Shown: piece by piece, positions 1-5,307 of the stretch | Position numbering within the stretch: position 1 is the first letter of the stretch | Layout of the letters: the number at the start of each line of letters is the position of its first letter | From: Rhodocyclales bacterium | GTDB taxonomy: Bacteria; Pseudomonadota; Gammaproteobacteria; Burkholderiales; Rhodocyclaceae | NCBI GenBank assembly: GCA_016235805.1 | Contig: JACRIY010000042.1 | Coordinates: 1-45,340 of the forward strand | Direction of reading: 5' to 3' | DNA length: 45,340 bases | Translations under genes and position numbers: made by a program | The notes under the pieces: generated by a model | Told to the model about the DNA's origin: nothing | The model's database searches: none | The model's input: the letters and a program-made list of their open reading frames with translations, nothing else

Positions 1-80
1 CGAATCCTTCCCAGTTCCTTCATGGTAATCATCGCCCCATCTACCCTGCTCAAATGTTGAGCAGCGGAGGTTAATTACCC

Positions 81-140
81 TGGTCAATTTTCAACGCGCA
101 CAACGGCGTCTAAATGGTCAATTTTCAGTGCGCGTCAACA
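81..140. mobile_element. Probable terminal repeats of an IS21-family insertion sequence
   Basis: Two imperfect direct copies of a motif beginning TGGTCAATTTTCA start at 81 and 115. The second copy ends in GCGTCAACA at 140, so read from the other strand the end begins TGTTGACGCGCACTG. Multiple internal direct copies and a TGT...ACA terminus are typical of IS21-family ends (family knowledge). The element body, with istA and istB, would lie to the left outside the window. Bases 1-80 would then be the tail of the element; no clear IstB C-terminus could be recognised there. The coding frame of the following ATPase fragment starts immediately after 140, which supports 140 as the junction. The target duplication cannot be checked because the other end is missing. 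Confidence 0.6.
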
Positions 141-1295
141 CTTACAGGCCTTGCCGCGCTGGGTGCGGCCATGGGCATGACCGCGTTCGATCAATTGAAG
201 GGGCTCGTCGAGCGCCACAACAAGCATACGGATAGCTTTGACGCGGAGGTCAACAATGCCCGCGAGGCGTTAGCGAAGGACGAAGTGCTCAAGGCACTGC
301 CGGATTGGCAGGAGAAGTCGGGCAAGGTCTCTACTGCGCGCGAGAATGCGACCGCCGCACGTGAGGAGGCCGAAAAGATAAAGAAGCAAATTGCCGATCT
401 TGAGTTGGAGGTTAGACAGCACCGGCGACCTGCCGAGGAGCTAAATGAAGAAGTGGCTGCCTACCTTGGTCGAGACGAGCTGCGATTTGAGGTTGAGCAA
501 AATGGCTATCGGATCACGCGTGGTAGTCAGCCCGCCACGCATCTCAGCGACGGAGAACGCACGGCGATTGCATTCCTCTATTTTCTCAAGTCGCTCAAAG
601 GCACTGATTTTGATATGGAGACTGGAGTGGTGGTAATTGACGACCCCGTTTCAAGCCTTGATGCCAACTCGTTGTTTAGCGCCTTTGGCTTCATGAAGCA
701 GAGGACTGCGACAGCTGGACAGCTTTTCGTGCTGACCCACAATTTCACTTTCTTTCGTCAGGTTAGAAACTGGTATTACAACCTCCCTGGTCAGAAGAAG
801 GCGGACATTACTCGGCAGCCGGCAAGGTTCTATATGCTAGCCACGGAATTCGTGAACGGGAGCCGGACTGGCAAGCTGGAGCTTCTTGACCCATTCCTGC
901 ACCAGTACGAATCCGAGTACCACTACCTGTTCAAACGAGTTCACGAGGAAGCGCACAAGCCCGCTGGCCAAAGTTTGGAGGCGTACTACGCCATTCCCAA
1001 TATCGCAAGAAGGCTGCTTGAGGCCTTTCTTGCGTTCCGAGTGCCGGATAAACCGGGCGAGCTATTCCAGAAGCTCGAAGTCGTCCAGTTTGACGCGGCC
1101 AAGAAGACTCGCATCCTTCGGTTCCTCCATACCTATTCGCACTTTGACCAGGTAGCGGAGGCCGGTCACGACCCGTCCGTGCTGTCGGAAACCCCGGCAA
1201 TTCTTCAGGACGTTCTTGCGCTTATCAATGGCTGTGATCCTGCACACTTTAAGAGCATGGCTGAACTCGTTTCTCCCCCGGCCGTTGCCCCGTGA
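141..1295 (+). pseudogene. 5'-truncated AAA_13-type ATPase (SMC/RloC-like) interrupted by an IS end
   Basis: The reading frame is open from an ATG at 114, but bases 114-140 belong to the insertion-sequence end, so the native gene piece begins at about 141. What remains is the C-terminal half of an ABC/SMC-like ATPase of the AAA_13 kind: a charged, coiled-coil-like stretch at about 200-480, the signature motif LSDGE at 543-557, a Walker B hhhhDD motif followed by PVSSLD at about 627-660, and an H-loop THNF at about 735-746. The Walker A P-loop and the first half of the coiled coil are absent. Relatives (RloC, AAA_13 proteins beside restriction-modification genes) are mostly phage-defence or nuclease-linked ATPases. 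Without a P-loop the product is probably inactive. It ends 19 bases before the stop of the oppositely oriented FtsZ-like gene. Confidence 0.75.
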
Positions 1296-1314
1296 TTTAG
1301 TGCATTGCCGCAGG

Positions 1315-2070
1315 TCATGTTGATTTCAGTTGGTTTGCCCTATTCATCAAAACATGGATGCTGCCTGTTATGTGGCAGTCAAGGCCGTTGAAGACGTCAA
1401 TCATCGGGGTGTCGGCGCTGTGACGTTTCGCCCAGCCGTCATTCGAGAACTCCATCACCAGATCGGCCTCGCGGCGGAGATTTCTGATCGCGGTGTGTGA
1501 CTTTTGTTGGCGCACCCCCTCGTACTCAAATGGGGTGACGACAGCGGCAAAGGTCAGGGCGCCGGCCTCATGCGCAAACCTAGCCAAGATTGGCGTTACG
1601 GCACTACCAGTGCCGCCACCCAAGCCAGCCACAAGAACGACCATATCTGCGCCGGCTACCAAAGCCTGCAACACTTGGCGCTGCCGCAAGGCCACAGCAC
1701 GCGCACCATTGACCCACCCGCCAGTACCCACTGGCGCTAGCGCTATGGTCTTAACTGGCGCAAGTTCAGGGTGTTTTTCGCTGGCGGCGGCTACATACCG
1801 CAGGGCTTGCTCGCCAAGATCGAGGCAAATGAACTCAGTCTGGTCGGTGCTCTCCAAAACGGCGCTTGACCACGCAGCCCGGACAATATTGCAGCCGGCA
1901 CCACCGATGCCAATAACCTTGCCTGATCCGGCTGTACGGCCATTTAAGCCGGACCAAAGCGACTTTCTCGGTGTTGCCGGCAGCTGCAACCATGCCGGCG
2001 ATGCCGTGGCGGGAAAACTTAGGCCAGCGATGCCCGCGCCAACTCCCTGCAAAAATAGACGTCGATTCAC
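1315..2070 (-). CDS. FtsZ/tubulin-like nucleotide-binding protein with Tat-like signal peptide
   Basis: The 251-residue product has an N-terminus NRRLFLQG followed by a hydrophobic Ala/Gly segment to about residue 25. This matches the twin-arginine (Tat) signal pattern. Residues 51-245 resemble the FtsZ GTP-binding domain: KVIGIGGAGCN at 51-61 (T1), a glycine-rich strand near 115, the tubulin signature GGGTGS at 151-156 (T4), VVTPFEYEG at 177-185, and SND at 209-211 aligning with the FtsZ guanine-contact region. The protein stops where FtsZ would begin its T7 loop, so the catalytic loop and the C-terminal domain are absent. The start is GTG, with GGAG about 10 bases upstream; no in-frame ATG lies nearby. 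It is 32 bases downstream of the AbrB-like gene, probably in one transcript. It could be a non-polymerising GTP-binding protein or a degraded paralogue. Function is unknown. Confidence 0.75.
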   Translation of the reverse strand: MNRRLFLQGVGAGIAGLSFPATASPAWLQLPATPRKSLWSGLNGRTAGSGKVIGIGGAGCNIVRAAWSSAVLESTDQTEFICLDLGEQALRYVAAASEKHPELAPVKTIALAPVGTGGWVNGARAVALRQRQVLQALVAGADMVVLVAGLGGGTGSAVTPILARFAHEAGALTFAAVVTPFEYEGVRQQKSHTAIRNLRREADLVMEFSNDGWAKRHSADTPMIDVFNGLDCHITGSIHVLMNRANQLKST

Positions 2071-2102
2071 TGCTGCTGTTCTCCATCGTTAGCGAGACGC
2101 GA

Positions 2103-2333
2103 CTACCACTTCTCTTCGGCGGCCGGCGCTTTGTTCGTGATCTGTGATTGCGCCCCGTCCGTCGCGTAGCCAGAATGAACTTCGCGTTCATTGACGGGCC
2201 TGATAACAATGTCGCCGGAGTCCAAGAGGCGGACGTACATGTAGTCGCCGGCGTGCAGGGAAGCCCGTTCGGCGATGTGCTGCGGCATGCGTAACCCGAG
2301 GCTATTGCCCCATTTGCATAGCTTTGTTGGCAT
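2103..2333 (-). CDS. AbrB/MazE-like DNA-binding protein (antitoxin-type)
   Basis: This 76-residue protein starts with the swapped-hairpin AbrB/SpoVT/MazE pattern: KWGNSLGLRMP at residues 7-17, then a helix, then GDYMYVRLLDSGDIVIRPV near 29-47. In MazE proteins this part binds the operator DNA and the C-terminal tail wraps the MazF toxin. Here the tail (about residues 50-76, polar, ending AAEEKW) does not look like the usual acidic MazF-binding segment, and no MazF-like gene is adjacent. A GAGG ribosome binding site lies six bases before the ATG. The gene sits between the unrecognised 243-residue gene and the FtsZ-like gene, so it may be an autoregulator of that group rather than an antitoxin. 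The fold call is good; the partner is unknown. Confidence 0.7.
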   Translation of the reverse strand: MPTKLCKWGNSLGLRMPQHIAERASLHAGDYMYVRLLDSGDIVIRPVNEREVHSGYATDGAQSQITNKAPAAEEKW

Positions 2334-2429
2334 GGTGGAACCTCACTGGCGGTTGATCGACTATGGCTATCACAAATTGCCAATCCGGGGCGCGGCACCG
2401 ACCTGCTGTGCTGCCCAGGTCTGACTCGC

Positions 2430-3161
2430 TTACGACCAGTGTTGGTGCAGCCAGTCACCCGCAAGGTAGTCAGGTGAACCGAATGACGCTCCGGTGGGAC
2501 TCCGCTCGTTGATGATCTGCATCAGGCTTTGTCCAGTCGCGAAGTAGCGTAGCTGCTCAAGGACGGCCTGCGTATCGGATTGACCAAGTTGATACGCCCG
2601 CAGCAGTTGCAAGGCTTCCTGCCCGCCAACATTGCCGGCTACCCGGATTACTTCAATCCATTGCGCTGTCCAAAACAACATTCCCCGAGTATTGGCCAGA
2701 ACCGCATCGAGCCATTGGTCCGGTATTGCCTGAATCGTTGGTAGGAGTGCGCCAGTATCTCGGTAGAGGTGGTACAGCGGCAGTGCCATCAGGAAGTCAT
2801 CACGGCCAACGGGGTGGAATTCGCGAAGCCACTCATCGAAGGTTAGTTCGCCTGCGTCAGCGGTATCGACGGCCCGATGATCGTCAATCTCGACGAAATC
2901 CAGAACCGTGCCGAATGCCCCAGCTTGGTCGGTCGCGAGTAACCCGATGACGGCTTCAATGCTACCTGGCCGCGGTTCGCCGGATTGGCTAATCAAGGTC
3001 CGCAACCACGGATTTGGCGTATTGGCGGCGAGAACGGCCCGCAGTCGTTGATAGCGGCTGGCATCCCCTGCGTCGCCGTAGTTCCATCGGAACTGGACCA
3101 CGCGCCCACCGGGTTTAGGTGCCAACTGCCCCCCGAAGTCGGGCATGCGACCGGTTGCCAT
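2430..3161 (-). CDS. Hypothetical protein, unrecognised
   Basis: I do not recognise this 243-residue protein. It has no signal peptide or membrane segment and looks soluble: an N-terminal Gly/Pro-rich lead, an acidic middle (around DFVEIDDHRAVDTADAGE), and a helical C-terminal half with many Trp, Leu and Gln residues. The open frame extends to a TTG at 3191, which would overlap the upstream hydrolase gene by 23 bases. The ATG at 3161 is preferred because AGAGG lies four bases before it and it follows the hydrolase stop by seven bases. Tight spacing suggests co-transcription with the secreted hydrolase. The downstream AbrB-like gene follows after about 96 bases. Confidence 0.6.
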   Translation of the reverse strand: MATGRMPDFGGQLAPKPGGRVVQFRWNYGDAGDASRYQRLRAVLAANTPNPWLRTLISQSGEPRPGSIEAVIGLLATDQAGAFGTVLDFVEIDDHRAVDTADAGELTFDEWLREFHPVGRDDFLMALPLYHLYRDTGALLPTIQAIPDQWLDAVLANTRGMLFWTAQWIEVIRVAGNVGGQEALQLLRAYQLGQSDTQAVLEQLRYFATGQSLMQIINERSPTGASFGSPDYLAGDWLHQHWS

Positions 3162-3168
3162 ACGCCCT

Positions 3169-4071
3169 CTATTTGTTGATGCCTTGTTCAATCTGAGTTA
3201 GCCACAATTGCGGATTCGCGCTTGCGAAGGCGTGACCGTCGCCAGTCGTGGTTTCCAAACTGATGAAGTTGATGCCTGACTTTGTCGCTATGTCCGCATA
3301 GTCACTGAGGTCCCGGTCCGAGAAGTACGAATCCTTGGTGGCGTAGACCCATGCCTGATTCTTGAACTTCGTACCGCTCTCATCAAGCATCCTGTGAGTC
3401 ATGTTGTTCTTCGATTCGCAGGCCGTCGTCCAGCCACCGCTGATATTTACCGCGTAGGCCACCTTCTCGGGATGCCGAGCGCTGTAGTAGCTGGACAGGA
3501 ACCCGCCACGGGAATGGCCCATGACAATTACCTTGTCGACCTTATATTCGGCGCGGACCCAATCGACGAATTGGTCAAGCTGGGGTTCAGCTTCCTCGAC
3601 GCCACGCATCTGGTCACTCCAGGAACACGTGCGCGCATCTTCCTCGGTGAACTTTCCTTCGCTGTTGCCCCGACCTTTTCGCATCACGACAAAGACTCGG
3701 TAGCCTTTAGCTACGAGTGCCGGGGCGACCTTGACGAATCTGACAGGCGTTTTGACACGCTTTTCATCGTAAGCCGTGCCGCCGTGTCCTATCCCCGTAG
3801 AGCCATGGTTGATGACGACAATTTTCCCGTTCCACTTGGTCGGTTCGGTGGCAAGGACTTCAAGCTTGAGGGGCGTGTCGCTGCCAAACGTGGCTTTTTC
3901 CATATAGGTGAACCAGCGCTGCTCTTGACTGATTTTCGGTGGCGTAGGCGTGCGCTGGGCGCTACTGGCTGGTGTGGGGATGTTTGCGTCGGAAGGGTCT
4001 GTCGCATAGGCAGTCGTTACCAGGCTGAGTAGCACTACTACGGCCCCCAGTGCGCCCAATTGCAGTTTCAT
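3169..4071 (-). CDS. Secreted alpha/beta hydrolase (dienelactone hydrolase/BAAT-like fold)
   Basis: This is a 300-residue serine hydrolase of the alpha/beta-hydrolase fold. The start at 4071 gives a standard Sec signal peptide of 23 residues ending TTAYA, with an AGGA ribosome site eight bases upstream; a longer in-frame start at 4119 would bury that signal. Visible catalytic features in the chosen numbering are an oxyanion HGSTG at 89-93, the nucleophile elbow GHSRGG with Ser187, a probable acid Asp247 in TKDSYF, and His280 in GDGHAF. Two cysteines in the mature part could form a disulphide. The substrate cannot be told from sequence; esterase or dienelactone-hydrolase-like activity in the periplasm is the most that can be said. 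It is first in a minus-strand group with the unrecognised protein downstream. Confidence 0.8.
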   Translation of the reverse strand: MKLQLGALGAVVVLLSLVTTAYATDPSDANIPTPASSAQRTPTPPKISQEQRWFTYMEKATFGSDTPLKLEVLATEPTKWNGKIVVINHGSTGIGHGGTAYDEKRVKTPVRFVKVAPALVAKGYRVFVVMRKGRGNSEGKFTEEDARTCSWSDQMRGVEEAEPQLDQFVDWVRAEYKVDKVIVMGHSRGGFLSSYYSARHPEKVAYAVNISGGWTTACESKNNMTHRMLDESGTKFKNQAWVYATKDSYFSDRDLSDYADIATKSGINFISLETTTGDGHAFASANPQLWLTQIEQGINK

Positions 4072-4154
4072 ATGAAATCCTCGTTTAGATTGCCCGCTGC
4101 GTTTCTTATTGCGTTTCATGAGATGGTTGCGTAAGACGCCACAGAAGTGAAGGC

Positions 4155-4183
4155 GTAACCGGCGCTGTCGCTGCGCCGGTTAC
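4155..4183 (-). terminator. Strong hairpin after the 159-residue gene, probable terminator
   Basis: An 11-base perfect stem, GTAACCGGCGC with GCGCCGGTTAC, encloses a 7-base loop. It lies 14 bases beyond the stop of the small minus-strand gene at 4197 and before the hydrolase gene. On the minus strand the following bases are pyrimidine-rich but not a clean U-tract, so it may be a weak intrinsic terminator or a 3'-end stabilising stem. Confidence 0.5.
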
Positions 4184-4196
4184 TTTGCCCGAAGAA

Positions 4197-4676
4197 CTAC
4201 TTGATTGGCTTCATCGGTGTTACGGTCATGAACCAGGTCAAACCAAGATCGGCGAACTCACTCAAAATGCAGCGCGAGGGATCCGACTGAGGGGCCGGGT
4301 CTATCACATAGGCGAAAGTCTGTTTCGGATTGCCAAAGTCCTTCATGCGATGATGAAGAAGAATCCTTCCTTGTTCCATTTCGGGGTCGGTGTCTTGCCA
4401 TACCAGGCATGTATCCGGCAGGTCCTTTAGCGAAGATACTTCGCGCCAGTTGCTCGCAACGTACCCGTAGGCCGCGAAGAGAATTTGAAGGCGGCCTTCC
4501 TCGATAAAGTAAGGCCCGTTGGTCGGCCTCAGTTTGAATTTATCAATTGCAGTTTTTAAGACGTCTGTGATCGGTTTTCCCGAGATCATTGCGATGCAAG
4601 CTAAGCCATCCGTTGTTTCTGTAAGCTGCTCGGTTCGCTTGTAGGCAGGGGTAAATGCGGCGGGTAGAGATGCCAT
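4197..4676 (-). CDS. Hypothetical protein, possible papain/C39-like cysteine peptidase fold
   Basis: The product has 159 residues and no signal peptide. An early segment, DGLACIAMISGKPITDV at residues 23-39, resembles the nucleophile helix of C39-type and related papain-like domains, where a Cys starts a helix and is followed by a small-residue Gly turn. His108/His109 before a strand and Asp126 in YVIDP then fall in the Cys-His-Asp order of that fold. The Gln that normally precedes the nucleophile is not seen, so enzyme activity is uncertain; binding-only homologues exist. An AAGGAG ribosome site lies seven bases before the ATG. The gene is separated from the hydrolase by a strong hairpin. 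The fold is my inference and a structure prediction would settle it. Confidence 0.5.
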   Translation of the reverse strand: MASLPAAFTPAYKRTEQLTETTDGLACIAMISGKPITDVLKTAIDKFKLRPTNGPYFIEEGRLQILFAAYGYVASNWREVSSLKDLPDTCLVWQDTDPEMEQGRILLHHRMKDFGNPKQTFAYVIDPAPQSDPSRCILSEFADLGLTWFMTVTPMKPIK

Positions 4677-4693
4677 GAAGGTTGCTCCTTGAG

Positions 4694-4721
4694 TTGTGGT
4701 TCGAGGATTGTGGTGCGAGGA
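4694..4721. repeat. Tandem 14-base direct repeat upstream of the 159-residue gene
   Basis: Two adjacent copies of TTGTGGTTCGAGGA differ at one position (T or G at base 8). They start 18 bases upstream of the ATG at 4676. Adjacent phased copies close to a start codon suggest a protein-binding site, but chance duplication is possible. Confidence 0.45.
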
Positions 4722-4927
4722 ATACGAGCAGCCGCCCGCGCCCGAGTGGAAATGCCTCGGGGACTCAGGTCAACGAATGAGGGTTTGTAGCTCGACGAAG
4801 ATCCTGTCCCGGTGCAACAACGCCGGGGCGGTCCAATCAAGCGAGGGGTCTGCTACGCAGTGGTCGTGTTCGGAACTGCTAGCCAAAAATCTGGCGCGAG
4901 CGCGACTGAGTGAATTATGCCACGGGA

Positions 4928-5086
4928 CTATTTAACGTGTTTCAGGAAAAAACTTTGCCACACAGCGTCAAAGATATTGTTGATCCGACAGCGCCTTAGA
5001 TCGTATTCCCGTTCCTTGTAGATGTTTGCTTTCCGGGCGTCTATTCGGAAGGTCATGCCAACTGCGAGCACTATTGTCGCTGACAT
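4928..5086 (-). CDS. Possible small hypothetical protein
   Basis: A minus-strand frame of 52 residues starts at ATG 5086, has a second in-frame ATG at 5056, and ends at TAG 4928. It begins with a short hydrophobic part (SATIVLAVGM), then a basic and acidic middle (RIDARKANIYKEREYD), and ends with a Phe/Trp-rich tail. The frame stays open further upstream, so it could be the 3' remnant of a longer lost gene. Only a weak GGAA ribosome site precedes the ATG. The composition looks protein-like, but nothing is recognised. Confidence 0.25.
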   Translation of the reverse strand: MSATIVLAVGMTFRIDARKANIYKEREYDLRRCRINNIFDAVWQSFFLKHVK

Positions 5087-5307
5087 CGACTTGCATTCCG
5101 GAAGCGAAAGCGTGCCCGGATGATGTCTGGTGGTAGCCGGGCAGGGATGTCGGATGATTCTGGAAGAGTAGAATGAAACGGGAAGAGCGGCAGTTTTTAC
5201 CTAAGAATCAATAGCTGCCGAAAATGTGTGTATCAATGTGCGTATTTTTGCCATTAAGCATATCTACTGTTGTTTGTTATCAATAAGTTAGAATAGGAAT
5301 TGCTGTT

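Follow-up and report, generated by a model that had tools for sequence, protein, structure and literature searches.

RR-FtsZ, a rare accessory protein family pairing a twin-arginine-type N-terminus with the nucleotide-binding half of FtsZ

The window analysed here is a 45,340-nucleotide stretch of DNA from a Rhodocyclales bacterium (contig JACRIY010000042.1), and the gene under study lies on its reverse strand at 1315..2070; it has a GTG start codon, and its 251 aa product is a free-standing FtsZ GTPase domain preceded by a twin-arginine-type N-terminus. Judged from sequence, the protein is a member of a rare, accessory and distinct family, termed RR-FtsZ, in which a twin-arginine signal is joined to the nucleotide-binding half of FtsZ (loops T1 to T6 and helix H7). 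Taken as a whole, the evidence tips modestly towards an exported, non-polymerising FtsZ domain; the more specific proposal, that the GTPase domain is carried across the inner membrane by the twin-arginine translocation (Tat) system with guanine nucleotide and is non-polymerising and nucleotide-loaded there, is tentative and falls somewhat short of even chances. If true, this would make RR-FtsZ the first member of the FtsZ/tubulin superfamily known to us to be exported. FtsZ and tubulin are known for cytoplasmic polymerisation and GTP hydrolysis; RR-FtsZ would show the fold working with neither, in a surprising place for it.

By fold, RR-FtsZ belongs to the FtsZ/tubulin superfamily. Profile search, structural alignment and sequence alignment all find the FtsZ GTPase-domain fold in the window protein, including the T1 nucleotide loop (GIGGAGCN, residues 54-61; 1888..1911, reverse strand) and the T4 loop (GGGTGS, residues 151-156; 1603..1620, reverse strand), and so confirm the fold and loops named in a preliminary description of this DNA. 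That description also held that the protein stops before the T7 loop, which proved correct: the final element is helix H7 (residues 223-249; 1324..1404, reverse strand) in the AlphaFold2 model, the structural alignment and the sequence alignment, and no T7 follows it. The window protein scores 110.9 bits against the ftsZ equivalog model TIGR00065, which has a cut-off of 295.2 bits, and RR-FtsZ proteins are 33-38% identical to FtsZ of the same genus; since the T7 loop, the C-terminal domain and the model cut-off all fail, RR-FtsZ is not filed as FtsZ. Three other matches of the protein were set aside: Pfam Tubulin_2 (E 0.0059) and NAD_synthase (E 0.17) are both below cut-off, and a PADLOC match to BrxHI (E 0.00045, 16.6 bits) is taken as chance.

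To measure conservation, RR-FtsZ was aligned with 36 canonical FtsZ from the order, and the columns conserved in 90% of these were compared. The canonical columns identical in all four intact copies of the family (the window gene and loci L053, L054 and L055) amount to 5/8 for T1, 2/10 for T2, 1/9 for T3, 7/14 for T4, 6/10 for T5, 2/8 for T6 and 0/13 for H7; for the T7 loop (NxDxxD) 9/11 conserved columns are absent from all four and 0/11 are identical in all four, and for the C-terminal domain 58/64 are absent from all four and none is identical in all four. All four intact copies retain the T6 Asn and three have the H7 Phe, which is replaced by Trp in L055; an H7 Asp in each of the four aligns with the guanine-contact position. 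In FtsZ, T2 and T3 contact Mg and the gamma-phosphate, and T7 completes the GTPase site of the next subunit. Because T2 and T3 are changed in all four intact copies, it is doubtful that the protein binds GTP as such, even supposing that it holds a guanine nucleotide; neither FtsZ-like polymerisation nor GTP hydrolysis is expected, as T7, the C-terminal domain and FtsZ-type T2/T3 are all missing. RR-FtsZ probably binds guanine nucleotide without FtsZ-type hydrolysis or polymers.

Residues 1-23 of the window protein (MNRRLFLQGVGAGIAGLSFPATA; 2002..2070, reverse strand) resemble a signal peptide. The protein starts with MNRRLFLQ, in agreement with the twin-arginine pattern previously noted from NRRLFLQG and the hydrophobic segment behind it, and continues into a hydrophobic Gly/Ala-rich stretch, with A-T-A at residues 21-23. 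An [ND]RRxFL start is found in all seven loci that keep their N-terminus (the window, L053, L054, L055, L056, L057 and L079), in which x is L, M, K, L, E, R and E, respectively; a free x within an invariant RR and FL is as in Tat signals. All seven also have the Gly/Ala-rich hydrophobic stretch and then A/V-x-A/G at residues 21-23 (numbered with RR at 3-4), and all four intact copies, that of the window among them, combine an uncharged, moderately hydrophobic h-region with an A-x-A-type site. A loose RR rule is passed by 3 of 246 other open reading frames (ORFs) across 18 loci. The host genome encodes TatC (E 6.3e-70) as well as a canonical ftsZ; from the motif, the A-x-A pattern, its conservation and the presence of tatC we infer that the N-terminus is a Tat signal.

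The family comprises 11 loci in 10 genomes (G000, G589 with two loci, G747, G758, G720, G739, G698, G639, G623 and G1442), all of a single bacterial family, that of Rhodocyclales bacterium GT-UBC 1_3; L053 and L054, also listed as L041 and L047, are the two loci of G589, and L055 is the same gene as L042 and L003. The four intact copies are mutually 48-78% identical, and all four terminate after H7. Both the RR motif (7/7 N-termini) and the missing C-terminal domain (4/4 intact copies) are therefore conserved among homologues, and none of the 11 loci both lacks RR and carries a full C-terminal domain, the combination that the preliminary description had set down as the sign of a decayed paralogue.

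Presence of the family is patchy in genome searches. Among 395 genomes of the window's family, seven, including that of the window, match at E 1e-28 or below; up to six candidates per genome were scored, and copies may be missed. Genus-level searches gave matches in 4/28, 1/28 and 2/45 genomes. Searches at E 1e-28 miss fragments, since G639 and G623 gave no match there and yet hold remnants beside the partner gene (described below); another remnant lies in G1442. In the order sample (399 genomes, own included) nothing beyond the window's own protein exceeds 90.5 bits, the level of canonical FtsZ, and in the class (369) and phylum (299) samples the L041 protein as query finds the window's own gene alone at E 1e-28. 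A scan of species genomes with six peptides of the window protein, and hence limited to those patterns, found one relative, in Rhodocyclales bacterium GT-UBC 1_3, whose best segment is 46% identical to query residues 1-244. With respect to a mobile or viral origin, tblastn gave 0 matches at E 1e-5 among 72,556 plasmid and 50,697 phage records, and two IMG/VR scans with family alignments, a weak negative based on two short peptide patterns each, found no relative. Three IMG/VR contigs (L060, L061 and L062) encode an FtsZ 45-49% identical to the canonical FtsZ of this genome.

The ratio of nonsynonymous to synonymous substitution (dN/dS; NG86) is 0.18-0.35 over the six pairs of intact copies, the values for pairs that include the window being rough as their dS is about 2. 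In a maximum-likelihood tree a branch with 100/100 support splits the four intact copies from the 36 canonical FtsZ; the tree is unrooted, the stem very long and the residue make-up of L042 unusual, and the tree therefore does not fix the origin within FtsZ. A shared C-terminal tail (for example GFTFAPDCQSV, GSTFASGHLSV) was considered as proof of a selected end point and given up; in the loci having it, the tail DNA directly precedes a Phd gene and remains alike past the stop codon, and may be conserved as a promoter. The end point after H7 is better supported by the window copy and L054, which lack a downstream Phd gene and also end there.

RR-FtsZ genes sit in a recurrent cassette. A MazE/AbrB-like gene is found directly upstream (27-37 bp) of all four intact copies; in the window it encodes a 76 aa small DNA-binding protein (2103..2333, reverse strand; PF04014, E 1.9e-8) that lies 32 bp upstream of the FtsZ-like gene. 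Before it, 4/4 intact loci carry a partner gene of 159-193 aa, which in the window lies at 4197..4676 on the reverse strand and encodes 159 aa. The partner is possibly C39-peptidase-like: the profile match is weak (Pfam E 0.16, one member only), the structure model is poor, and the DC motif is present in L053 and L054 and absent from the window and L055 copies. In the window the partner is split from the MazE/AbrB-like gene by two additional reverse-strand genes, a 253 aa protein (2430..3191; Pfam, NCBIfam, PADLOC and PHROGs all gave no match at the thresholds applied) and an alpha/beta hydrolase with a hydrophobic N-terminal stretch (3169..4119; PF00561, E 4.8e-14), neither of which has a tblastn match in 17 related loci. 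Across the 11 loci the AbrB-like gene is present in six and the small partner, whole or partial, in seven; a Phd-type antitoxin gene is directly downstream in eight, the exceptions being the window, L054 and L056.

A search for the partner gene in 390 genomes of the family gave 13 with a match at E 1e-6, and of nine partner loci above 100 bits six adjoin FtsZ-like sequence. The partner locus of G421 ends about 19 codons into the AbrB-like gene, at an insertion-sequence-like stretch just before the contig end; in G562 and G520 there is no FtsZ-like sequence within the stretch read. In G520 (L080 3042-5185) the gene after the partner is an unrelated one of 258 aa, with Phd-like and ParE-like genes behind it, which looks as though the FtsZ-like slot could be exchanged. 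A Massilia plasmid holds relatives of the partner and AbrB-like genes about 2 kb apart, flanking an integrase gene, with no FtsZ-like ORF in the stretch listed. Between L053 and L055 the partner is 36% identical and five nearby genes are 81-95% identical, which suggests very fast divergence or allele exchange. In two genomes, at L045 1444-1932 and at the same place in L046, the remaining C-terminal half of the FtsZ-like gene is in frame with a preceding MAKTLTSEGQVSIP that by eye resembles an AbrB/SpoVT start, which is what a deletion joining two adjacent genes would leave.

In the account proposed here, the FtsZ domain acquires its fold in the cytoplasm, probably with a guanine nucleotide bound at T1, T4, the T6 Asn and H7. 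Tat would then deliver the folded domain to the periplasmic face of the inner membrane, to be released by cleavage at the A-x-A site or to remain tethered; there it would act as a nucleotide-loaded or ligand-binding protein, and the AbrB-like protein would be the likely regulator of the operon. Several observations weigh against this account. A cytoplasmic nucleotide makes poor sense as a periplasmic ligand, and the MazE-like neighbour is also compatible with a cytoplasmic toxin-antitoxin pair. No Tat signal model matched the window protein in the Pfam and NCBIfam scans, in which such short models often miss; charged residues fall within the hydrophobic stretch of L057 (Arg) and of the frameshifted L056 (Glu and His). 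Damaged or remnant loci make up seven of the 11: a frameshift disrupts L056, L057 breaks off behind the VVTPF motif, the N-terminal half is gone from L058 and L059, an in-frame loss in L079 removes T3 to T5, and L083 and L104 survive as C-terminal remnants. Finally, between L053 and L055 the FtsZ-like gene has a dN/dS of 0.33, versus 0.05-0.11 for five neighbours (the AbrB-like, Phd, ParE, SNF2-like and DUF2130 genes); its dS of 0.53 is within the range of these neighbours, and the small partner is too diverged to score. On these sequence comparisons the family is distinct, modestly constrained by purifying selection and evolving faster than neighbour genes; the damaged loci and the faster evolution point to an accessory role. 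A role in conflict or occasional stress is suggested by the defence and toxin-antitoxin neighbours, the patchy presence, the frequent decay and the fast protein evolution; this is the weakest step of the proposal and is given far less confidence than the exported, non-polymerising domain as a whole.

An alternative is that RR-FtsZ is a membrane-tethered modulator or decoy on the cytoplasmic side, which binds canonical FtsZ or absorbs FtsZ-targeting toxins or phage inhibitors. The retained FtsZ fold, the Phd-type antitoxin gene just downstream in 8/11 loci and the defence-like genes near the window and L055 copies would all fit, and FtsZ-targeting toxins are known, CbtA (PMC5624674) being an example. 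Against it, by the positive-inside rule, an RR ahead of a hydrophobic stretch predicts an N-in/C-out topology that places the domain outside; moreover, most FtsZ-conserved residues of T2, T3 and H7 are changed, which argues against the domain fitting under an FtsZ subunit, and the window copy has no downstream Phd gene. The modulator or decoy is considered unlikely, though it is the most probable of the alternatives.

A toxin-antitoxin pair, with the MazE/AbrB-like protein as antitoxin and the FtsZ-like protein as a toxin that, for example, poisons division, has in its favour a small antitoxin-like gene beside the candidate toxin gene in 4/4 intact loci, at the short spacing given above, and both the PF04014 match and a below-cut-off match to a 'putative addiction module antidote'. 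An exported toxin would however be beyond the reach of a cytoplasmic antitoxin, MazE/AbrB-like proteins are often plain regulators, and on the Massilia plasmid the MazE-like relative occurs with the partner and no FtsZ-like ORF in the stretch listed; the pair is regarded as improbable. Slightly less probable still is a Sec-exported or lipid-anchored protein in which RR is an incidental charge: a short hydrophobic segment with an A-x-A-like site fits Sec too, but both Arg and the F-L are invariant in 7/7 N-termini though the residue between them varies (Leu, Met, Lys, Arg, Glu), and Sec signals need no RRxFL-type pattern; the lipoprotein reading was rejected, as there is no conserved lipobox Cys and the window copy lacks one. 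A decaying FtsZ paralogue, that is, a truncated ftsZ with a chance N-terminus, is the least probable alternative, because the RR start and the missing C-terminal part are conserved although 7/11 loci are damaged or remnants (by frameshift, truncation, internal loss or loss of the N-terminal half), and the four intact copies share the start, the end point and the partner genes, keep the identity and dN/dS given above, and group apart from canonical FtsZ.

With bacterial FtsZ (TIGR00065/PF00091), RR-FtsZ shares the GTPase domain and H7 fold, the T1 and T4 loops and the T6 Asn; it differs in lacking T7 and the C-terminal domain, in its changed T2, T3 and H7, its twin-arginine start, its status as an accessory gene and its separate group in the tree. 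The profile of the phage tubulin PhuZ (phrog_4733) matches the GTPase domain weakly (E 3.1e-6) and over positions 8-127 of 323 only; PhuZ forms filaments. RR-FtsZ resembles Tat substrates in the RRxFL motif, the Gly/Ala-rich h-region, the A-x-A-like site and the tatC of its host; to our knowledge no Tat substrate has an FtsZ/tubulin fold. The family would offer a clean test of whether Tat exports a guanine-nucleotide-binding protein together with its ligand, and its intact genes are small, simple test objects.

In the open-licence literature, no description was found of FtsZ, or of a protein like it, carrying a Tat or twin-arginine signal, which does not imply absence from print; the literature found on FtsZ-like proteins, periplasm and signal peptides includes an account of two FtsZ-superfamily proteins, FtsZl1 and FtsZl2. 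FtsZl1 and FtsZl2 occur beside canonical FtsZ and are thought to have non-division roles, according to the parts of the source covered (Makarova and Koonin 2010, PMC2875224), where a reviewer points out that FtsZl1, as a cytoplasmic protein, would be unable to form complexes with periplasmic partners. As given there, most FtsZl1 proteins carry a coiled coil with a helical C-terminal domain, and FtsZl2 keeps T7 and has a C-terminal region of ~300 aa; RR-FtsZ is neither of these, as it ends at H7 without the coiled coil or helical domain of the former and without the T7 and ~300-aa region of the latter, and those parts of PMC2875224 give neither a Tat signal nor an H7 end for either protein. The same parts describe a comparable FtsZ-like protein with N-terminal transmembrane helices, Sulfolobus SSO1376, which differs from RR-FtsZ in being archaeal and transposon-disrupted, no twin-arginine signal being mentioned in them.

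The RR-FtsZ gene lies in an accessory segment at 1..5305, which may extend further to the left, as the contig begins at 1. In three genomes of the genus, the 18-19 kb read at the corresponding site show no blastn match to positions 1-5305; all three match the window from 5306 on (G618 at 91.6-93.1%), and G618 has no family member at E 1e-28; the G+C content of the segment is 55.4% versus 64.2% for the remaining window. Integration linked to a tRNA was rejected, there being no tRNA within the window, and a promoter/terminator scan gave a result no higher than shuffles. An AAA_13-type gene without its first half occupies 114-1295, the contig start just preceding it; it matches positions 376-737 of the 740 in the profile of PDC-S06, a candidate defence family, and near L055 there is a second PDC-S06-like gene together with a DrmD-like helicase. 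On the 5' side of the AAA_13 gene, at 81-133, two direct repeats of 19 nt, near-identical (89%) and starting 34 nt apart, look by eye like an insertion sequence end.
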